A DNA stretch of 64,000 nucleotides from Flavihumibacter solisilvae. Its GTDB lineage: Bacteria; Bacteroidota; Bacteroidia; Chitinophagales; Chitinophagaceae. The notes beneath the pieces were generated by a model that worked only from the letters and a program-made list of their open reading frames with translations, was not told the origin of the DNA and did no database searches. The position numbers and the translations under genes are program-made. This document shows, piece after piece, positions 9,149-19,747 of this stretch. Every line of letters starts with the position of its first letter. Position 1 is the stretch's first letter. The stretch is from contig NZ_JSVC01000010.1 of assembly GCF_000814475.1 (NCBI RefSeq), forward strand, positions 62,001 through 126,000. Reading direction: 5' to 3'.

Positions 9149-11374
9149 TCAGTTGCTGCTCACCAGGCGTGACGATAATTTTTCCAGTTCAATACTGATC
9201 TTGTTGATATACTCAAACTGATCAGCAAGAGTTTTAAGTTCAGATAACTTACGGCGGGTGGCAGTTTCAAGACTACCCGCTGCTAGTTCCCTGAGCCGTT
9301 GTTGCAATAACTGTTTAAGTTCCTCCCTGATTACAAAGTTTTCCTCGTCGTTTAAAATTGCATTTGCATCTTTACTTCCCTCAAGTAACCTGGCTGCATT
9401 TTCCAGGTGACCCAGTGATGCTTTAATGATCGGCTTGAATTTGTCGGAAGCATATTCTTCAGCCAGCCTCCTGTAAGAGGATAAGGTAGCGGTGTGTGAA
9501 ATGATCATATGGCAGGCTACTACCATCTGGTGAATGACCTGGCTTTTCTTCTGTTGTCTTCGCGGTTCGTTGAGCATCCGCTGAAAGGCGTCAGATAAGT
9601 TGGCAAGTTGTACAAACGCTTCTTTCCGGTGAAGTTTATAATCGAGGTTATTCAGGGGCTCCGCGATAAAAGGCTTCGAAATAAAACTGAAATATTTCGC
9701 CTGTGCTTCGATCGCGTTTTGCAGGAGCTCCTGGATCTGTTCATGTTCCCATCTTGGCGGAATGGCGAAAGTGGCAATGAAGGCAATCATTGACCCGGCA
9801 AAAGTATCGATCAGCCTGTCCCGTAATACTTCCGTGAAATCACCGGGTTTCAGGAAGTGGAAAGCGATAAGGACATAGACGGTCATGGCGACAACTGCCA
9901 CCATGTACTTTACCCGGAGCATGCTGTATGCTATGACCATCCCGATGATCATCAATCCGACAAGCGCCCGGTCGTCCCGGATCACCCAGAGGATGAGCGC
10001 ACCGACCACGGCCCCGGTAAATGTACCGGTAAGCCTTTCGATATTCCTTTGTTTCGTGAGACTATATGCAGGTTTAAGGATCACTATGATGGTGAGCAGG
10101 ATCCAGTAGCCGTGACCAAACGGAAGGATCTTTGATAAAAAATAACCTGCGACCAGTGAAAGGCTGACCCTGACGGAATGCCGGAAGATATTTGAGTTGA
10201 TGCTGAGGTTGTTTGCCAGCAGTTTCAGGTTGAATTCGGAAGGAGATACGAAACGCGAATAGTCTTCCCTTGATGAAGTGTCCGTTCCTATCTTTTTATC
10301 AAAACTGGTGTACCGGTGAAGCGCCTCGATGCGCCTGTAAAGGTCTTTCAGGCTGTCAAGGATGTGCCGGAGACTGATAAAGCCTTCGATATTACTGTCA
10401 TCCATAGACGAAGCCCTTACTTCGAGGAACCTGTTTTCAAGCGCTTTCAGTTCGCCCTCCAGTGCGGGATTGAGACGGGAACGCCTGCCTTCCTGTAATG
10501 CAAGCCCGGTTTCTTCAGCTTCAGTCGCAATTTTCAGGATAAATTCACGGAACGCAGGTAAGAGGGCGCTTTTATCCAGCATTTCGTGGAGGTGGCGATA
10601 GTCCTGCTGCGAAGTCATGATCCTTTCAAAAAGGTCCACACTGTCGAGGAAGATCATCATCAGGATCCGGCTCGTATGCGTTGATTCCCGGACGATGTCC
10701 CTTGTCTTGAACATCATTTCCCTGACAAGGTTTTGTTTGTTGTGAACCTGCACCTGCTGATCGAGCAAGGTCTTATAAGTCTGTTCGTAATCTACCGTAC
10801 TGTTATAAAAATCGGCGCGGGTTCGCAGGTAGGAAGCAGTCGAGATCAATGCATCCCCCAAAGCCTGCTGGAGTAATTTATACGGTCTCAACCTGTAAAG
10901 GGCCATACTAATAGCAAGGTAAAAGATCCCGCCGCCGCTTACCAGCAATGCATTCCGGAGAACCTGGAAACTGTCGTACCGTTCATCGATGCTCAGGATC
11001 ATCACCAGCAGTCCCGCCCCACCAACAGAATTTGCCCGGGTTCCATACACGCCGATGAAAGAACAGGCAAATCCCATTACGCCGATAAAGACAGCGAGCA
11101 GCCAGGGATAAGCAATGCTGAAACCAGTGAGCAGGGAGGCAAGAAAAATGAGGAGGATGGCAGCAACCATTCCATTGATCCGATGATGAATAGGGCCGGT
11201 ATTATCAGTAAGCGCCACGCACATGGCACCGAGCCCGAGTGCTATTCCTGCCTGCAGGTGACCCAGCCATGATGCCGTCAGCACAGGAATCATTACGCCT
11301 GCTGTTGTGCGGGTACCTTCCGATACATAATAACTGCTGCTGTACTTCTTATATTCCCTGATGTAATCGATCAT
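9149..11374 (-). CDS. FUSC-family integral membrane protein (YccS/YhfK-like)
   Basis: A 741-residue inner-membrane protein with two blocks of hydrophobic helices (about 20-165 and 395-525), each followed by a long helical cytoplasmic region, the duplicated layout of the fusaric-acid-resistance/aromatic-acid-exporter-like superfamily (AaeB, YccS). The second block carries FGHGYWILLTIIVILKPAYS, typical of FUSC repeats. Transport of aromatic or other organic acids is the family role, with the substrate unknown here. It begins 7 nt after the HD-PycTM gene on the same strand, so the two are very likely one transcript; it converges with the korA-like gene over a 5-nt gap. Confidence 0.8.
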   Translation of the reverse strand: MIDYIREYKKYSSSYYVSEGTRTTAGVMIPVLTASWLGHLQAGIALGLGAMCVALTDNTGPIHHRINGMVAAILLIFLASLLTGFSIAYPWLLAVFIGVMGFACSFIGVYGTRANSVGGAGLLVMILSIDERYDSFQVLRNALLVSGGGIFYLAISMALYRLRPYKLLQQALGDALISTASYLRTRADFYNSTVDYEQTYKTLLDQQVQVHNKQNLVREMMFKTRDIVRESTHTSRILMMIFLDSVDLFERIMTSQQDYRHLHEMLDKSALLPAFREFILKIATEAEETGLALQEGRRSRLNPALEGELKALENRFLEVRASSMDDSNIEGFISLRHILDSLKDLYRRIEALHRYTSFDKKIGTDTSSREDYSRFVSPSEFNLKLLANNLSINSNIFRHSVRVSLSLVAGYFLSKILPFGHGYWILLTIIVILKPAYSLTKQRNIERLTGTFTGAVVGALILWVIRDDRALVGLMIIGMVIAYSMLRVKYMVAVVAMTVYVLIAFHFLKPGDFTEVLRDRLIDTFAGSMIAFIATFAIPPRWEHEQIQELLQNAIEAQAKYFSFISKPFIAEPLNNLDYKLHRKEAFVQLANLSDAFQRMLNEPRRQQKKSQVIHQMVVACHMIISHTATLSSYRRLAEEYASDKFKPIIKASLGHLENAARLLEGSKDANAILNDEENFVIREELKQLLQQRLRELAAGSLETATRRKLSELKTLADQFEYINKISIELEKLSSRLVSSN

Positions 11375-11381
11375 GCGCCTT

Positions 11382-12629
11382 TTACTTCATACCCATAAAG
11401 CTTGCGATGCCAAAAGAAATGACTGCTATAATCAGGCCGAACATAAAAATATTATAGGACAGCCTGAGGAAATGGTATTTGCGGGCAAGCACTTTTCCGA
11501 GGTAATAAATATCCTTGATCATACTGCCATAGAGATACTCCCTGTCATTCATCATTTCCTTCATGCCCCATTCATAGTCGTTGAGATTCATTTTAAAGAA
11601 GTTGCCGAAGAAAAGGAGATTGACTTTTTTCTCCCTGATATCCTCTTCTGTAAATACACCCTTTGTTACATTGGGCCTGGTGGCCATGATGGCAAAGACA
11701 ACTGCGAGCAGGCAAACGCAGGAAAGGATGATTGTGGGAATGATGAATTGCGGGTAATACTGAAGTTTACCGATCAGCACTGACACCAGGATGGAAAGTA
11801 CGATGGTATTTACGGAGATCATGATATTTGCCTTACTGTCGGCCATCTGGCTAAGGCTGACATGGTTATCGCTCATAATGCGGAACATGGTGGCGATACC
11901 TCTTTCCGTACGGTTGAGTTTGTCTTTTTCCCGCTTTGCTTTTTCTTTCAGGTGAATGGGCTGTTCGACTTCGGGCAGCGGTTCGGATTCTTCAATTTCG
12001 GGTTCGTGTTTTTCAATAATTTCTTCACGGTTGCCCTTATCTTTTTCCATCAGTTCTTTCAGGTGCCTGTCCTGGACAGGCTGCAGGTGCTCCCGGCCAA
12101 AGGAGGTGAAAAAATGATGTTGCTGAAGAAAGCGGATGTTCAATTTCCGCCAGGTCTTTTTACTGATATCTTTTCCGAAAGCTACATTCAGTTCTTTCCG
12201 CAGCAATTTATTTTCTTTTTCGAACTGGTCAGAACCCAGGTGATAAAGGTCTGAGTCGCACAGGATCTCTTCAATAATGGTGTTGGGAGATTGTGGCATC
12301 CGGGTAGCCATGATACAACCCTTAACACTGCTGATGAGAGATTCGTCAACATGCCTTGCTTTCAGAAACTCACCTGCGATCTGGACACTTACACTCTCAT
12401 GGCCTTCATATTGACGGCTATAACCGGTATCATGAAACCAGGCAGCCAGCAACAAGGCAGTATGTTCCTGTTCGCTCAACGAATAATTCGCTGCGATAGT
12501 TCCGGCAGCAGCTACGACTGCGAGTGTGTGGTGCAGATCATGAAAATGATAAGCAGCAGGCACCTGCTCGGAAAATAACTGCGTAACATACTGTTCGGCT
12601 GATGTTATCAGTGAGTCATTAGTTGGCAT
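11382..12629 (-). CDS. HD phosphohydrolase fused to PycTM-type membrane effector domain
   Basis: A 415-residue two-domain protein. Residues 20-190 are an HD-type metal phosphohydrolase: HDLHH 30-34, FHD 65-67, H77 and D125/D127 are the candidate metal ligands. A charged linker (190-245, rich in E and K) leads to a membrane domain with three hydrophobic helices (about 268-287, 294-314, 393-412). SLSQMADSKANIMISVNTIV (258-277) is the hallmark segment of the Pfam PycTM domain, found in effectors of Pycsar cyclic-pyrimidine anti-phage systems. No cyclase gene is within reach. The HD part may degrade or sense the nucleotide that gates the membrane part (inference). It is followed, 7 nt on, by a FUSC membrane gene. 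Confidence 0.82.
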   Translation of the reverse strand: MPTNDSLITSAEQYVTQLFSEQVPAAYHFHDLHHTLAVVAAAGTIAANYSLSEQEHTALLLAAWFHDTGYSRQYEGHESVSVQIAGEFLKARHVDESLISSVKGCIMATRMPQSPNTIIEEILCDSDLYHLGSDQFEKENKLLRKELNVAFGKDISKKTWRKLNIRFLQQHHFFTSFGREHLQPVQDRHLKELMEKDKGNREEIIEKHEPEIEESEPLPEVEQPIHLKEKAKREKDKLNRTERGIATMFRIMSDNHVSLSQMADSKANIMISVNTIVLSILVSVLIGKLQYYPQFIIPTIILSCVCLLAVVFAIMATRPNVTKGVFTEEDIREKKVNLLFFGNFFKMNLNDYEWGMKEMMNDREYLYGSMIKDIYYLGKVLARKYHFLRLSYNIFMFGLIIAVISFGIASFMGMK

Positions 12630-12739
12630 CCCACCTGTTTATGAATCTAAATTAACTCATATTGGGACATTCACCACAGTTCATATTTTTCCCGCATATA
12701 TACAATTCAAATTGGTTGTCAATAGTTAACTTGCAGTGT

Positions 12740-13573
12740 ATGAGGTATTCAGTTCTGTTCACCCTCATGGCGGTGATCGCAACAACGTTCGAAAGCTGTG
12801 ACAGAATGGTTTCCTTGTCGTTCGATCCCGGCATACCTGGTTACACTCAGAGTCCCGACAGAACCATACTTCTTAAAAAAGCCCTGCGGGAAATATCGGG
12901 AATTCATGACCTGAATGAAACTGAACTGCTGGGAATAAACGATGAGGACGGCACCCTGTTTTTCATTAATAAAGTAACCGGCAGGTTCCGTGAGCAGACA
13001 TTCGGAAAGCAAGGCGATTATGAAGACCTGGCCATTACTCCCTATGGGTATTATATACTCGCCAGCAACGGTGACCTTCATCATGTGGACAGGAGCAGCG
13101 GAAAAGAGACTGCAGTTTACAGCCGGTCATTTCCGAAGTTCGTAGAGTTTGAGAGTCTTTGCTATGATGAAAAACATGACCAGTTGCTGCTCATCTGTAA
13201 GTCCTGTGGCCCGAATGATCCTTACATCAATGCATGGCGGTTTGATCCGAAAACGAACAGCTTTGATCCGAATCCGGTGTTCTCTATTCCGTGGACAGAA
13301 ATAAGAAAAAAAGGAAAGGATGACACAATTGAATGTCTTCCTTCTGCTGCGGCCATTCATCCCGTAACAGGCAGGTTGTTCATTATTGCTTCGATGGGAA
13401 AGGTAATGCTGCAGAGCACTGTTAGTGGCGAACTTGAAGCAGTCTATGGCATTAACCCGGATATTTTCCAGCAACCGGAAGGCTTGTGTTTCGCACCCGA
13501 TGGTGATATGTACATCACCAATGAAGGCAGGCAGTCCAAGGCAAGTTTACTATACTATCCATATAAGAGATAA
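12740..13573 (+). CDS. Lipoprotein with SdiA-regulated (YjiK-like) beta-propeller fold
   Basis: A 277-residue predicted lipoprotein. The frame is open further upstream, but the ATG at 12740 gives a clean signal (MRYSVLFTLMAVIATTFESC) with a candidate lipidated cysteine at 20. The rest shows propeller-like blades: LNETELLGINDEDGTLFFIN, QGDYEDLAIT, FPKFVEFESLCYDE, PEGLCFAPDGDMYITNEG. These resemble the SdiA-regulated/YjiK family, whose molecular role is unknown. The stop codon touches the ATG of the next gene, a phosphoesterase-barrel fusion, so the two are co-expressed. A TAACTTGC sequence 8 nt before the ATG may be a variant -7 box. Confidence 0.72.
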   Translation: MRYSVLFTLMAVIATTFESCDRMVSLSFDPGIPGYTQSPDRTILLKKALREISGIHDLNETELLGINDEDGTLFFINKVTGRFREQTFGKQGDYEDLAITPYGYYILASNGDLHHVDRSSGKETAVYSRSFPKFVEFESLCYDEKHDQLLLICKSCGPNDPYINAWRFDPKTNSFDPNPVFSIPWTEIRKKGKDDTIECLPSAAAIHPVTGRLFIIASMGKVMLQSTVSGELEAVYGINPDIFQQPEGLCFAPDGDMYITNEGRQSKASLLYYPYKR

Positions 13574-16500
13574 ATGAAAACCTACCGCGGGATATTTTAC
13601 CTACTGGCTGTTCTGCTGGCAGGAGAGCGTGCCGGTGCACAAAGTGATTCCATAAAATCAAGGATCATACTGGTTGGCGATGCCGGTGAGCTGACTAAAG
13701 GCAAGCATCCAGTGATGGAAGCTGTTTCCAAACTTAACCAGGGTGGAAAAGGAGTGGCGGTCGACCGCACCACGTTGTTTTTCCTTGGCGACAATATTTA
13801 CCCGGTTGGTCTGCCCGACCCGGGCACATCGAATTACCAGAAAAAATATGAGCTGCTGCAACTGCAATGGCAGAAAGGGAAGCTGGCGGCGGGCAACCTG
13901 GTCTTTATACCGGGTAACCACGACTGGGCCAAGGGCCGGCCATCTGGTTGGCGGCAGGTCACAAGGCAGGCAATTGTTGTGAACAGCAATCCCGACAGCA
14001 GCATCAGGTTCCTTCCAGAGTATGGCTGCCCGGGCCCTGAAGAAGTGGCATTAAGCAGCGATGTAACAGCCGTTATAGTAGATAGCCAATGGTGGTTGCA
14101 GCAGGATGGACGTCCGGGTGAAAGCAGCGATTGCGATTGCAAATCAGAAGAGGAGTTGTTGCTGAGGCTGAAAGACATCGTTTACCGCAACCGGAATAAA
14201 CTATTGTTGTTCATTACCCACCATCCATTTTTATCGGAAGGAATTCACGGCGGTTACTTTACGTTTAAGCAGCACATCTTTCCACTGACAGATGTTAAGC
14301 CGGGATTGTTTGTTCCACTACCGGTTATCGGTTCGCTTTATCCCATTGTCAGGGGTGGATTCGGAAATATCCAGGACCTCAAACATCCACGTTATAAAAG
14401 CCTGATAAACGGAATTGATTCAATACTTGATGATCATCCGTATTGTATCAGGATAGCCGGCCATGAACATGGGTTACAACACCTGGAGAAAAATGGCCAT
14501 CACTATATCGTGAGCGGATCGGGTGCAAAGGTCACCAGGCTTCATAATGGTCCATACACTAAATTTCAGCAGGAAAGCCTGGGGTATGCGACATTGGATG
14601 TACTTGTCAATGGATCAGTTGAGTTGAAATACCTTGGCGTGAACAGTGATAATGGAAATAAGGAACTTTACTCAACGGTTTTGCCCAGGTTCCAGCCAGT
14701 TGCAGATGCAGGCGCCGTTGAAAAACGGCCGGACTTTCCCGATTCAGTAACCGCAATTGCGGCTTCCCGGTATAAAGCGGGCTCCTTCAAGAAATGGTTG
14801 CTTGGAAGCAACTACCGGCCGGAATGGACAACGCCGGTGAGGGTTCCTGTCCTTGACATTACGAATTACCTGGGTGGGTTAACACCAACCCGAAGAGGCG
14901 GTGGACTGCAATCCCGTTCACTGCGATTTGAAGACAAATCCGGAAAAGAATATGTGATACGCAGCATTGAAAAATTTCCTGACAAAACCCTGCCGGAAGA
15001 ATTGCGGGAGACTTTTGTAAAAGATGCTGTGGTAGATGGCATCAGTGCTTCTTATCCTTATGCCGCGCTATCTGTACCCGCTATGGCTGATGCGGCAGGT
15101 GTTCCTCATATGACGCCCAGGTTGGTATTCCTGCCTGACGATCCGGCGCTGGCACAGTACCGCCCTGATTTCGCAAATGCTTTATACCTGTTCGAACCAC
15201 GTGACCCCGACAGTGTTGCAAAAAGTACAAGCACGATTAAACTGGCAGAGAACCTGCAGAAAGACAACGACAACCAGGTTGACCAGAAAGCGGTGCTCAG
15301 GGCAAGATTACTGGACATGTTCATGATGGACTTTGACCGACATGAAGACCAATGGCGATGGGGCAACATTTCAACTAAGGAGGGAAAGAGCTACTACCCG
15401 ATCCCGCGCGACCGTGACCAGGCTTTCTTCATGAGTGAAGGAGTATTACCCTCGGTGATCCGCAAACCCTGGATCCTGCCGAAGTTCCAGGGCTTCAGGC
15501 CGAAGGCCATCAATATCAACACATTTAATTTCAACGCGCGTTATTTTGACCGGATGTTCTTGACCGAACCGGATGAAGACGATTGGAAAAAAGCGATTGC
15601 CGTTTTTGTTCCGACGATGACCGATTCTGTAATTGCAACCGCCTTGAATCAACAACCTTCAGCTATTCGCAATCAACATGCTGTGTCTATAGTGGAAACG
15701 CTGAAAAAAAGAAGGGCGACACTTCCTGATGAGGCCCTTCAGTATTATCGGTTCCTGTCAAAGACGGTTGATATACCGGGTTCGGATAAGCGGGAATGGT
15801 TCGACCTGGAATGGAGGGATGACGGCAGTCTTGCAGTGAAGGTTTATAAAATAAACCGTTCCGGGAAGCGGTCCGACAAATTGTACGACAGGATCTTTGA
15901 TCCCTCATTAACCCGCGAGCTCAGGTTATACGGCATGAATGGGGATGATGTTTTCAACCTGCACGGGAATGCAAAACGCAGCCCGCTGATACGCATCATC
16001 GGTGGTGTCGGAAAAGACACATTAACTGCGGACCAGAAGGGAGTATCCGCCGGAAAAATAAAGTGGTATGACCTGGCGACAGAGCAGAATGTGAAGACCG
16101 GTGAAGGGAAATTCAGGAAAAAGTTCTCTGACGACCCTGCTGTGAACAGTTATGAGCGCCGCAGTTTCAAGTACAATATCACTGCCCCACTCCTTTCTGT
16201 TGCATACAACCCGGATGACGGTGTATTTCTTGGTGCGGGTGTGGTGTCGACAAGACATCGTTTCAGGAAAGATCCATTTCACATCAAACAGCAATTCACC
16301 GCGAACTATGCCATTGCTACAGGCGCATATAATTTCCGTTACCAGCTGGATGTAACGGAGCTGGTACCTTTGCCAATCGGGAACCTGAAAAATCTTGATC
16401 TCCGGTTCATTGCTAATCTAAAGGCACCGAACTATACCCAGAACTTCTTTGGCTTCGGTAATGAAACTGAATTCCCGAATGAAGGCGACAAGAAGATCTC

Positions 16501-17257
16501 TTACTACCGCGCGAGGTTCAGTCTTGCCGAAATGGGCGCATTGGTGAGGGCGAAGCCGGTCAACAATTTGTCGATATTGACAGGGCCGTTATTTCAACAC
16601 TTCTGGATTGACAAGGATGATGAAAAGAACGAAGAGAAATTTATAACCGATCCAGCCAGCGGTATCAACCAGGAGACGCTGTACGAACCAAAAACTTATT
16701 TTGGCTGGCAATTACAGGCAGTTGTAGATAACAGGAACAGTGTGATCATGCCATCACGCGGTTTTTATTGGAATACATTCTCAAGGTGGGTGGAAGGCAT
16801 TTCTGATCATGCATATGCGTTCAAGCAGGCGCAGACAGACCTTTCCTTCTATACGAGTTTCAGCGCGAGGGCGAATGTAGTGGTTGCTGTAAGGGTCGGT
16901 GGTGGCGTGAACAGCGGGAGCTATGAATTCTTCCAGGCACAATACCTGGGTGTATCTGACAACCTGCGGGGCTTCCGCAAATACCGGTTTGCGGGCAAGC
17001 AAATGGTATTCAATAATATCGACCTGCGGTTGAAACTTGGGGAAATCAAAGGTTATATACTCCCGGCAACTGCCGGCCTCGTATTCTTCAATGATATAGG
17101 CCGGGTATGGATCCCCGGGGAAAAATCAGGACTCTGGCACGATGGCTTTGGAGGTGGAATATGGATGGCTCCTGCAGGCAAATATGTTTTCACGGCCTGT
17201 TATTCACATAGCAGCGATGGAGGATTCCCATTTATCTCTCTTGGATTTCAATTTTAG
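13574..17257 (+). CDS. Phosphoesterase / kinase-like / outer-membrane barrel fusion
   Basis: A 1227-residue exported protein with a signal peptide ending near residue 22 (AGAQ). Residues 28-330 are a calcineurin-type metallophosphoesterase with all metal motifs: GDAG 35-38, GDN 72-74, GNHD 114-117, THH 215-217, GHEHG 296-300. Residues about 430-700 contain LRFEDKSGKEYVIRSIEK, DMFMMDFDRHEDQWRWGN (581-598) and YPIPRDRDQAFF (608-619), resembling the catalytic and metal-binding loops of HipA/Fam20-type kinase folds (inference). Residues about 860-1227 look like a BamA/D15 beta-barrel ending in aromatic FISLGFQF. The enzyme parts would thus be held at the outer membrane. Start follows the previous stop directly. 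Confidence 0.82.
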   Translation: MKTYRGIFYLLAVLLAGERAGAQSDSIKSRIILVGDAGELTKGKHPVMEAVSKLNQGGKGVAVDRTTLFFLGDNIYPVGLPDPGTSNYQKKYELLQLQWQKGKLAAGNLVFIPGNHDWAKGRPSGWRQVTRQAIVVNSNPDSSIRFLPEYGCPGPEEVALSSDVTAVIVDSQWWLQQDGRPGESSDCDCKSEEELLLRLKDIVYRNRNKLLLFITHHPFLSEGIHGGYFTFKQHIFPLTDVKPGLFVPLPVIGSLYPIVRGGFGNIQDLKHPRYKSLINGIDSILDDHPYCIRIAGHEHGLQHLEKNGHHYIVSGSGAKVTRLHNGPYTKFQQESLGYATLDVLVNGSVELKYLGVNSDNGNKELYSTVLPRFQPVADAGAVEKRPDFPDSVTAIAASRYKAGSFKKWLLGSNYRPEWTTPVRVPVLDITNYLGGLTPTRRGGGLQSRSLRFEDKSGKEYVIRSIEKFPDKTLPEELRETFVKDAVVDGISASYPYAALSVPAMADAAGVPHMTPRLVFLPDDPALAQYRPDFANALYLFEPRDPDSVAKSTSTIKLAENLQKDNDNQVDQKAVLRARLLDMFMMDFDRHEDQWRWGNISTKEGKSYYPIPRDRDQAFFMSEGVLPSVIRKPWILPKFQGFRPKAININTFNFNARYFDRMFLTEPDEDDWKKAIAVFVPTMTDSVIATALNQQPSAIRNQHAVSIVETLKKRRATLPDEALQYYRFLSKTVDIPGSDKREWFDLEWRDDGSLAVKVYKINRSGKRSDKLYDRIFDPSLTRELRLYGMNGDDVFNLHGNAKRSPLIRIIGGVGKDTLTADQKGVSAGKIKWYDLATEQNVKTGEGKFRKKFSDDPAVNSYERRSFKYNITAPLLSVAYNPDDGVFLGAGVVSTRHRFRKDPFHIKQQFTANYAIATGAYNFRYQLDVTELVPLPIGNLKNLDLRFIANLKAPNYTQNFFGFGNETEFPNEGDKKISYYRARFSLAEMGALVRAKPVNNLSILTGPLFQHFWIDKDDEKNEEKFITDPASGINQETLYEPKTYFGWQLQAVVDNRNSVIMPSRGFYWNTFSRWVEGISDHAYAFKQAQTDLSFYTSFSARANVVVAVRVGGGVNSGSYEFFQAQYLGVSDNLRGFRKYRFAGKQMVFNNIDLRLKLGEIKGYILPATAGLVFFNDIGRVWIPGEKSGLWHDGFGGGIWMAPAGKYVFTACYSHSSDGGFPFISLGFQF

Positions 17258-17270
17258 GTCGAACTGCCGA

Positions 17271-19646
17271 TTATTTGGCTTCGATGATCTGCGGCTTGAT
17301 TTTGGGCTCCTGTTTTTCAGAAGCGACTTCCATGTTTATGCCTACACGGAGTGCTTTCAGCCCGATGACACCCTGCAATTCTTCAAGCTCCAGTTGCTCA
17401 AGGTCGTGCAGCAGGAGCTTTTGGTTCTGAAGGAATTCTATGTAATCGAGATATTCCGCAGCCTCTTTCGATTGTGAGAACACAATTGCCAGTTTGCCCG
17501 GCTGGGTAAGCCGCTCATGCGATCCTTTCACGTGCACTTTATCGATCCGTTTTTTTATGATCTCATAACGGATGTTGTAGGCCCCATCCACATCGAACTT
17601 TCTTTCGGCAGTCCGGAAGCTGATGGAGATCGGTATACTGTGCGCAAGGATCAACTGGGTTGTCTGCAGGCGTGTGGAGAGACGGCCCTGGAGTTGCTGC
17701 ACCATATGGGCTGCTTTAGCCAGTGTGGTCAGCTGCCACATTTTAAGATTTTTCAGGTAGAAGGTATCGAAAGGCTTGTCAGGGCTGATGGATTGCCCTA
17801 TATACATATTGAAGTCAACACCGTCGGTTACAAATCTTTCGAAGTAGTGAGGATAGATGCGTTGAGCCACTTCCTGTTCCTGGTCGATGAACCTGGCGAG
17901 TTCCTGGTTGATGAGCATGATGCTTTCTTCGAAATCGTGGCGGTGGTCGACCCGTAACCGGATACGCGAATCGATATGATTGAAGTATTCATCGATTTCC
18001 CTCGACACTGAGGGCACAACGATGCGAAGGTGTTCGAACAATTCAATCACTTCATTTTTGAGGAAGTTATCGATCATTATTTCGTCACCGGAAAACAGGA
18101 TGTTCGATACGTTGAACAGGTATTTGTCGATACGGTATGCAACTTCCTGCAGGAGTGGCATCGTTGTCTGCTGCTGTGCGCTGCGAATGATCTCACCTGC
18201 ATTGGTCAGCTGGTCTAACAGGTCGAGCTGAATGGCGTTATTCCTTTCAATAGATGAATTCCGGATGTCAATGGCGCCATATAACGGAAATACATGATCG
18301 AAGAAAATCGGATCGATCTTGGCTTTAATACCCTGCTTTTTATTAACCAGGTATTGCATTGCCGCTTCGGTGAATTTCCATTCTACCGAAGACTGTACGG
18401 CCGTGAAATGACGTTTGATCACTTTGTCCACTTCGTTGTCCATTGCTTCTGCTGCCTTTTCCAGGGCAAGGATAAAGAGCGGGATAGACGGCATGATCTG
18501 TGTAATGTGCCGGTGTTTCAGCATCCCCGGGGTTTCGTGCGTTGCTGAGAGGATGCCTATCAGCTCGCCATTGCTTTTCAGCGGGAAAAGAATGGCGCTG
18601 TAATTCCATTCAGCGGGTAATTGCCCGAGGAAAGGATGCTTCTGAAGTAGTTCGCTGTTGATATTGCTGTAGATAACAGGATCGTTGCTGTCTTTAAATA
18701 GACTGAGCAGCCACTTCAGGAGTTCCTGTTTTACGGCTTTGCTATTTTCAGAGACATCACGGCCTTTGGCCTGGCTATATTGTTCCAGGACGTAATGTCC
18801 ATTGACCTTGAAAAACGGGATGATACCCATTTTCACATTGGGCATTCCGATCAGGGTCTGCATTTCCTGTTCCAGTTGGGTGAAAAGTCCTGAATCGTCA
18901 AAGGAGTGATTATCCAGGAGAATGTTCTTGATATTACTGATCACCTCACGCTGTGTTACATCTTTGATCCTTACGATGGTGATGCCTTCGAACCTGAAGC
19001 GGTCCAATGGCAGAAGTTCGCGCAGGCTGTCGATCTTCATCACATCACTGAGACTGCAACAGGCATTGAGGTTATTGATGTGTGGAAGGGCATCGAGGGC
19101 AAAAACATCAATAAAGGTTGGATCCATGTCGATTTCGTAATAATTAACCAGGCCGGAAACCGGGTTCTTTATTCCTATAATACTGGTAACGTTTCCATCG
19201 ACTTTCTGGCCATAAAATTTTGCGAGGATAAGTTTGTATGCAGTGGAACACTTATCATCAGAAAGCTGCTGTTCAACCACCTGTTCGGGAAGGTAGTTCA
19301 GCTCGCCATTCTGGTCCAGGAATTTCTGCCGGAAAAGACTGCTTGAATAAATCACTTTATAACTGAACGGAACGCCGACCGCGTACAGATCTTCCTCATC
19401 GGAAAAGGTGACAGGAAAGAGAGTGGTCATGAGCATTTCGACCCATTCTGCGTTGTCGTCGAGAACGCTGGGGTCATCAATCGGTTCCAGCAATTCAGGA
19501 TGGTTGCGGATCCGGTCCAGCAAATTCTGGTATAGTTTTCTTGTACCGGGCCGGCCCTCCGATGCGCTTTTTTTCCATGCTTCGATCAAAGGGGTAAAAG
19601 AAAGCCTGCTGTTCAATACGCCTCCCCCGGACAGATTTCGTTCCAT
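17271..19646 (-). CDS. Large cytoplasmic GAF-like protein of unknown function
   Basis: A 791-residue protein from the ATG at 19646. The frame extends to 19742, but a perfect -7 box (19683-19690) and the terminator of the next gene occupy that part, so the longer start is unlikely. No membrane segment or signal remains. The middle (about 290-420) has a GAF-like stretch, YSAILFPLKSNGELIGILSA, and the region after it is helical and charged. C-terminal residues include KVHVKGSHERLTQPGKLAIV. I recall such proteins being labelled GAF-domain in Chitinophagaceae, with no known role. No output domain such as a kinase or cyclase is visible. It converges with the barrel fusion gene. Confidence 0.65.
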   Translation of the reverse strand: MERNLSGGGVLNSRLSFTPLIEAWKKSASEGRPGTRKLYQNLLDRIRNHPELLEPIDDPSVLDDNAEWVEMLMTTLFPVTFSDEEDLYAVGVPFSYKVIYSSSLFRQKFLDQNGELNYLPEQVVEQQLSDDKCSTAYKLILAKFYGQKVDGNVTSIIGIKNPVSGLVNYYEIDMDPTFIDVFALDALPHINNLNACCSLSDVMKIDSLRELLPLDRFRFEGITIVRIKDVTQREVISNIKNILLDNHSFDDSGLFTQLEQEMQTLIGMPNVKMGIIPFFKVNGHYVLEQYSQAKGRDVSENSKAVKQELLKWLLSLFKDSNDPVIYSNINSELLQKHPFLGQLPAEWNYSAILFPLKSNGELIGILSATHETPGMLKHRHITQIMPSIPLFILALEKAAEAMDNEVDKVIKRHFTAVQSSVEWKFTEAAMQYLVNKKQGIKAKIDPIFFDHVFPLYGAIDIRNSSIERNNAIQLDLLDQLTNAGEIIRSAQQQTTMPLLQEVAYRIDKYLFNVSNILFSGDEIMIDNFLKNEVIELFEHLRIVVPSVSREIDEYFNHIDSRIRLRVDHRHDFEESIMLINQELARFIDQEQEVAQRIYPHYFERFVTDGVDFNMYIGQSISPDKPFDTFYLKNLKMWQLTTLAKAAHMVQQLQGRLSTRLQTTQLILAHSIPISISFRTAERKFDVDGAYNIRYEIIKKRIDKVHVKGSHERLTQPGKLAIVFSQSKEAAEYLDYIEFLQNQKLLLHDLEQLELEELQGVIGLKALRVGINMEVASEKQEPKIKPQIIEAK

Positions 19647-19682
19647 GATATAGTTATTTTCTGCAGCTTCAGCGGCAATAAA

Positions 19683-19690
19683 CAAAGGTA
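19683..19690 (-). promoter_or_regulatory. -7 box TACCTTTG of the GAF-like gene
   Basis: Exact TAnnTTTG on the minus strand, 36 nt before the ATG at 19646. It decides between two possible starts: the longer frame would begin upstream of its own promoter. Confidence 0.5.
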
Positions 19691-19747
19691 AGAAGAGCTT
19701 GGTAATTCCACAGATAAACAGGTGAAAGATGGATTGGTTCAAAAAGC

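Follow-up and report, generated by a model that had tools for sequence, protein, structure and literature searches.

The window, as we call the whole stretch of 64,000 nucleotides of Flavihumibacter solisilvae DNA that was analysed, carries on its minus strand a gene whose product joins an N-terminal HD domain to a C-terminal PycTM membrane domain (HD-PycTM). The gene, its parts and its neighbours are, by position in the window:

11382..12629, minus strand: HD-PycTM fusion gene, 415 aa, ATG start (Pfam and PADLOC)
12060..12629, minus strand: HD domain, residues 1-190 (Pfam HD; 91/91 relatives; nearest solved sequences)
11904..12059, minus strand: charged, variable linker, residues 191-242 (identity 0.16 and zero invariant residues in 91 relatives)
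11385..11903, minus strand: PycTM domain, residues 243-415 (three hydrophobic segments; NLLFFGNF motif at 337-344)
9149..11374, minus strand: FUSC/YccS-type membrane protein (Pfam FUSC-like, 3.2e-47)
12662..13573, plus strand: SdiA-regulated/phytase-like protein, divergent neighbour (homologue in 31/52 HD-PycTM loci)
13574..17257, plus strand: calcineurin-type phosphoesterase fused to an Omp85 barrel (homologue in 38/52 HD-PycTM loci)
17271..19742, minus strand: protein of ~820 aa without significant Pfam match in the window copy (homologue in 20/52 HD-PycTM loci)

Pfam searches placed both domains in one chain above their gathering scores, which bears out the initial annotation. PycTM (PF18967) was matched at residues 289-398 (E 9.1e-38, 129.4 bits versus a gathering score of 27.2), inside the segment 245-415 for which such a match had been expected, and HD (PF01966) at residues 33-129 (E 1.2e-5, 26.1 bits versus 22). 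The PADLOC PycTM models matched the protein as well (best 1.7e-16, residues 260-407). All the motifs originally named are present: HDLHH (30-34), FHD (65-67) and DSD (125-127) in the HD part and the PycTM hallmark SQMADSKANIMISVNTIV at residues 260-277, the PycTM part also holding three hydrophobic segments with centres near 275-282, 300-313 and 395-406. The claim that no cyclase lies nearby holds too: the genome has one PycTM gene and six matches to the class III cyclase profile PF00211, located on contigs C45 (two), C56, C5, C26 and C39, and the search of the genome with this profile found none on C2, the contig of the window. The FUSC/YccS-type gene starts 7 bp downstream of HD-PycTM on the same strand and the two are possibly co-transcribed; FUSC was set aside as a functional partner because it is the next gene in 8/56 fused loci.

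Conservation was assessed in 91 full-length relatives (the window protein included, frames of at least 380 aa, two known duplicates dropped). Identical in 91/91 were H30, H34, H66, D67, H77, E78, D125, D127 and E146 of the HD part, so that every relative has the H..HD..D metal ligands of the HD superfamily, and, among others, A263, D264, K266, N337, F340-F344, D373 and K384 of the PycTM part. In this set, picked for matching the window protein, the mean fraction of residues identical to it was 0.40 for HD, 0.16 for the linker and 0.60 for PycTM, with 9, 0 and 23 invariant residues, respectively. Both halves are thus constrained and the linker is free of constraint, a pattern that agrees with a presumptive active metal enzyme joined to a functional membrane domain.

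The kinship of the HD part emerged from family-level comparisons. PF01966 was matched by 27/28 relatives at E up to 0.1, and, although the window sequence alone matched none of the solved proteins at E up to 1, a profile of 28 relatives found 2pq7 (2.5e-7), Escherichia coli YedJ (3gw7, 4.6e-7) and BH2835 (3dto, 1e-5) as the nearest solved sequences, the latter two making the similarity to YpgQ-like HD hydrolases. These YedJ/BH2835/YpgQ-like hydrolases share the H..HD..D ligand pattern with HD-PycTM, but they are stand-alone proteins whereas HD-PycTM is joined to a membrane domain, and 3dto has GHDWYHI where HD-PycTM has [YF]H[NDST]..H[TVS]. The latter motif resembles YHNxxH, which we take to be the signature of class I phosphodiesterases. 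Like HD-PycTM, the class I cyclic nucleotide phosphodiesterases (PDE4/PDE8, PF00233) belong to the HD superfamily, and PDE8A (0.48) and PDE4D (0.71-0.93) matched the first helices of HD-PycTM weakly and without significance. With the PDEase_I profile PF00233 and a limit of E 0.1, the window protein gave no match and 5/28 relatives gave sub-threshold ones (best 0.028); the HD protein of locus L184 matched it at 5.1e-4, below cut-off. Precedents for the substrate go both ways by analogy: YpgQ itself is described as an NTP pyrophosphohydrolase (PMC8177086), whereas PMC8431786 reports cAMP/cGMP phosphodiesterase activity for a YpgQ-like protein of plants, for which 3DTO served as the modelling template.

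PF18967 was found in 47/98 genomes sampled from the family of the window and in 154/392 sampled Bacteroidota genomes. The 154 split into 94 with HD-PycTM (called by a frame length of 390-468 aa, with HD confirmed by our own profile in 48 of them), 41 with stand-alone PycTM, 5 with cyclase-fused PycTM, whose cyclase-containing frames were set apart from the fused class, and 14 unassigned, all weak matches (best E 3.6e-15). Named relatives in genome contigs number 37, from Bacteroidota and Ignavibacteria, and two of them (L072, 5983-6600; L073, 4556-5260) hold HD without PycTM in the locus. Of 72,556 plasmid records 2 held a relative, while none of the 50,697 phage records did, and zero relatives were found among 48 pattern matches in viral contigs, none of these collections being weighted to Bacteroidota. 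The broad spread through the phylum and the near-absence from plasmids and phages make this the pattern of a chromosomal gene. A separate observation concerns locus L155 (6140-7354), which encodes a 404-aa PycTM protein of fused-class size without HD match, the N-terminal ~280 aa matching neither HD nor any Pfam family at E up to 0.001.

The chromosomal surroundings are conserved as well. Neighbours were counted in 52 HD-PycTM loci and in 31 other core PycTM loci, the latter taking in cyclase fusions and the HD-adjacent L112 and L113, and both counts leaving out the HD-only L072 and L073 and L177, L182 and L183, second loci of genomes that were already represented. In addition to the three neighbours listed above with their counts, PPK1 was present in 13/52 and a SixA-like phosphatase in 8/52 HD-PycTM loci. 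At least one of these five (phosphoesterase-Omp85, SdiA-like, ~820-aa, PPK1, SixA) accompanied 44/52 HD-PycTM loci and 15/31 other core loci, compared with 1/11 control loci with cyclases but without PycTM (L184, SixA) and 0/6 divergent Pycsar-like loci. The four-gene block of the window recurs in two loci from another class of the phylum (L115, L116). HD, PycTM, SixA and PPK1 lie consecutively on one strand in L110 and are divergently arranged in L176 and L177, and L151 has an HD-PycTM-PPK1 arrangement. As to the neighbouring products, the phosphoesterase-Omp85 protein of the window matched Omp85 at 2.6e-13 and Metallophos at 7.8e-4, just under cut-off; the Pfam matches of the SdiA-like protein are sub-threshold in the window copy, its homologue in L106 reaching 6.5e-9 for SdiA-regulated; and the homologue of the ~820-aa protein in L115 contains a GAF domain. 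The phosphoesterase-Omp85 gene, with homologues also in 15/31 other core loci, was the commonest neighbour of core PycTM among the loci examined.

Core PycTM is repeatedly paired with cyclases and with candidate hydrolases. HD and PycTM occur as separate adjoining genes in both orders: HD first and overlapping in L110, L140, L071 and L141, which could be frameshifted fusions, and PycTM first in L112 and L113, which, with the gene order reversed, cannot be. Class III cyclases are fused to PycTM in L158 and L160 (Pfam) and L159 (own profile), and in the genomes G212 and G416 a single frame likewise matches both cyclase and PycTM. In seven loci (L107, L109, L111, L112, L113, L137, L139) core PycTM is immediately preceded by a TolB-TPR-type class III cyclase, 36-114 bp away on the same strand, L112 and L113 thereby forming cyclase-PycTM-HD trios. 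Beside HD-PycTM itself, the survey of relatives suggested by the initial annotation found linked cyclases to be uncommon, yet they do occur: a class III cyclase of another type adjoins the gene in L035 (11 bp downstream), L141 (62 bp upstream) and L161 (convergent, overlapping), and the TolB-type cyclase is rarely near HD-PycTM, in 2/52 loci. The distance to this cyclase is ~5.5 kb in L177 and 13 kb in L176. HD was found in 2/22 PycTM-bearing genomes without HD fusion and in 1/3 genomes without PycTM; L184 (5812-8999), from a genome without PycTM match, combines HD alone with SixA and a TolB-type cyclase. Straight after stand-alone PycTM, four loci have an MBL-fold gene (L105, 8424-9248; L114, 8471-9343; L117, 7105-7929; L118, 2652-3539), followed in L114 by a receiver-cyclase. 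The MBL-fold protein Apyc1 is a known cNMP phosphodiesterase (PMC9117128), and the MBL-fold proteins beside PycTM are candidate signal-destroying enzymes. Together, the pairings seen in the relatives suggest nucleotide signalling of an everyday kind and not phage defence.

The F. solisilvae genome has its own homologue of the TolB-type cyclase (P0006, locus L172). Linked or fused to core PycTM elsewhere, this class III TolB/TPR cyclase is here a separate gene, unlinked to HD-PycTM and to its conserved neighbours. Both the PycTM-linked cyclases and the F. solisilvae homologue carry a QYYGDG motif. A prediction of the base used by the linked cyclases failed, since by our own position mapping QYYGDG fits neither the UTP- nor the CTP-specifying residues reported for PycC (PMC11224242).

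At the level of whole genomes, full-length homologues of the TolB-type cyclase were present in 40/392, and 37 of these 40 also have PycTM, compared with 154/392 overall (Fisher 1.6e-13, ancestry ignored). This count uses a cut of 336 bits with the query spanned from 1/2 to 299/302, which was placed after a gap had been seen in the match list and leaves out weaker full-length matches, those in the PycTM genomes G215 and G476 among them. The association extends beyond family f24, in which the two genes frequently adjoin: 13/14 TolB-type cyclase genomes outside it have PycTM. Within family f17 co-occurrence was 7/7 versus 2/18, among genomes listed with PycTM or class III cyclase, those with neither being uncounted, and in family f35 it was 2/3 versus 3/11 and not significant (p 0.51). 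The converse association fails, as 117/154 PycTM genomes are without the TolB-type cyclase, among them the HD-PycTM genome G008 of the same genus as the window at the cut used.

Class III cyclases in general (PF00211) were present in 57/94 fused genomes versus 105/238 PycTM-negative genomes. The link between PycTM, HD and cyclase is supported by the fusions, the trios and the co-occurrence. Were the signal always a class III product, every HD-PycTM genome would be expected to hold such a cyclase, but 37/94 fused genomes have no PF00211 match. These 37 contained no class I adenylate cyclase (0/37), a SMODS nucleotidyltransferase (CD-NTase) in 4 and a DAC domain in 14; by union, 20/37 have none of the four synthase families. 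The DAC count weakens cyclic di-AMP as a universal ligand (PMC9259658 serves as background on c-di-AMP in Bacteroidetes). No single known cyclic-nucleotide synthase thus accompanies HD-PycTM, and the 37 genomes weaken a simple cyclic-mononucleotide reading. No other finding speaks as strongly against such a reading as this synthase gap: the synthase-less genomes either use another signal, or have a synthase of a family beyond those searched, or have one that the searches missed.

On balance we favour, at about even chances, a reading in which HD-PycTM is a core chromosomal signalling protein of Bacteroidota that senses a nucleotide and, through the HD domain fused to it, removes it again. The C-terminal PycTM would act as inner-membrane receptor and output unit, perhaps as a channel, a pore or a regulator, for a small nucleotide that the N-terminal, YedJ/YpgQ-like and metal-dependent HD domain would hydrolyse, such that receptor and off-switch would reside in a single polypeptide. 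The signal itself would come from elsewhere in the cell, with the cyclase presumably acting in trans, and in a subset of genomes including that of F. solisilvae the maker is likely the class III cyclase that carries TolB-like and TPR parts. What stands of the earlier interpretation is the HD-PycTM fusion, the cyclase-free locus and the proposal of a core signalling protein, which fits a gene that is widespread, chromosomal, set in a conserved neighbourhood and apart from the recognised Pycsar loci of the sample; a defence reading is not supported, as the comparison with Pycsar below shows. The core-signalling reading is well supported as to context and moderately supported as to mechanism.

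The ligand could instead be a linear nucleotide, for instance (p)ppGpp or an NTP-derived alarmone, connected to polyphosphate metabolism, and the cyclase pairing a lineage-specific add-on. The 20 of 37 class III-less fused genomes that also have none of the three other synthase families agree with this account, as do the NTP-cleaving activity of YpgQ, a member of the group likened to BH2835 (3DTO) (PMC8177086, PMC8431786), and the recurrence of PPK1 (13/52) and SixA-like phosphatase (8/52), with the arrangements in L110, L176, L177 and L151. Because core PycTM is repeatedly fused or adjacent to cyclases and co-occurs with the TolB-type cyclase, we regard the account as rather unlikely in this form.

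A match to PycTM is easily read as phage defence, and the PycTM effector of Pycsar indeed belongs, far above cut-off, to the same Pfam family as HD-PycTM and has a similar membrane-domain plan; in the alignment, the FFG and K-[FY] positions of HD-PycTM recur in most divergent Pycsar-like PycTM rows. HD-PycTM differs from Pycsar PycTM in that it is fused to HD, has no adjacent PycC, keeps a conserved chromosomal neighbourhood and falls in a separate tree group. The recognised Pycsar loci of the sample are L122 and L128, whose cyclases score against PycC at 3.7e-120 and 1.1e-91 in PADLOC, and the L126 cyclase scores 6.8e-25; the core cyclases of L112, L158 and L006, by contrast, reach at best 21-34 bits against PycC. 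PADLOC found no PycC among the window proteins covered, 44 of the 50 ORFs of at least 170 aa; its matches there beyond PycTM/2TM were single components (mad3 at 1.6e-32, REase_II, mad8, AriA, two PDC-M43B models, PDC-M60B, HEC-01A and PD-T4-6), which we read as generic enzymes. Neither the plasmid, phage, viral-contig and neighbourhood data nor these single components place the gene in a mobile or defence-island context.

The tree of PycTM domains points in the same direction. This quick maximum-likelihood tree of 148 domains (SH-aLRT only) leaves out duplicates and keeps a single one of the L141 frames, of which there are two, and the row of L035 is a wrong short piece (45% filled) whose place means nothing. 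One group of 108 rows (support 97) is nearly all HD-fused, with four HD-adjacent and four stand-alone rows; another of 26 (support 98) contains the stand-alone and cyclase-linked core forms, including the HD-adjacent L112 and L113; and the three cyclase-PycTM fusions group together (support 98). Outside both larger groups lie L124, L155-L157, L152, L121, L131 and L133. The Pycsar-like rows L122, L123 and L125-L128 stand apart from the core on long branches with support of 83, under the starred level, and HD-PycTM does not group with the PycTM of the recognised Pycsar loci. Being unrooted, with long branches, the tree does not decide whether defence forms descend from core forms or the reverse. 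The absence of PycC, the separate tree group and the context speak against membership of the HD-PycTM locus in Pycsar.

This leaves the idea of a solitary Pycsar effector, in which PycTM kills or arrests the cell on cCMP or cUMP from a distant cyclase and HD resets it. The PADLOC PycTM match at 1.7e-16, the shared FFG and K-[FY] positions and the six class III cyclase matches in the genome would fit, but the idea has to contend with the low PycC scores of core cyclases relative to those of L122 and L128, the separation of the divergent rows from the core in the tree (support 83), conserved neighbours in 0/6 Pycsar-like versus 44/52 HD-PycTM loci, the near-absence from plasmids, phages and viral contigs (in collections not weighted to Bacteroidota) and the lack of PycC among the 44 window proteins; we judge it improbable. 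We give least credence to the view that HD is a nucleotide house-cleaning enzyme on a membrane anchor and PycTM has no receptor role: the two are separable (L112, L113), HD stands alone in L072, L073 and L184 and most tested PycTM genomes without HD fusion have no HD, but PycTM is the more conserved half (0.60 and 23 invariant residues versus 0.40 and 9 for HD), which an inert anchor would not be, and the two are kept as neighbours in both gene orders.

Should the receptor-hydrolase reading be true, a nucleotide signalling pathway outside defence would operate across the phylum, and an origin of the defence effector in a housekeeping receptor would become testable. We tentatively extend it to a broader and doubtful scenario in which PycTM is an ancient housekeeping receptor of Bacteroidota, with a class III cyclase as maker and HD or MBL hydrolases as breaker, whether fused to it, beside it or scattered in the genome, that was later recruited by Pycsar, the synthase-less genomes reading an undescribed signal. 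The cyclase-PycTM fusions and cyclase-PycTM-HD trios offer compact maker, reader and breaker constructs for joint assay. In the openly licensed literature we found nothing on PycTM with an HD domain, on DUF5706 or on a fused Pycsar phosphohydrolase. For annotation, since most high-scoring 'Pycsar effector protein' Pfam matches in the sampled Bacteroidota are HD-fused or other core chromosomal forms, a PycTM match alone would over-call defence in this phylum, the one surveyed. Among the divergent forms, locus L126 (5950-7999) has its PycTM beside a receiver-cyclase and another receiver-like gene, an arrangement that suggests two-component control.
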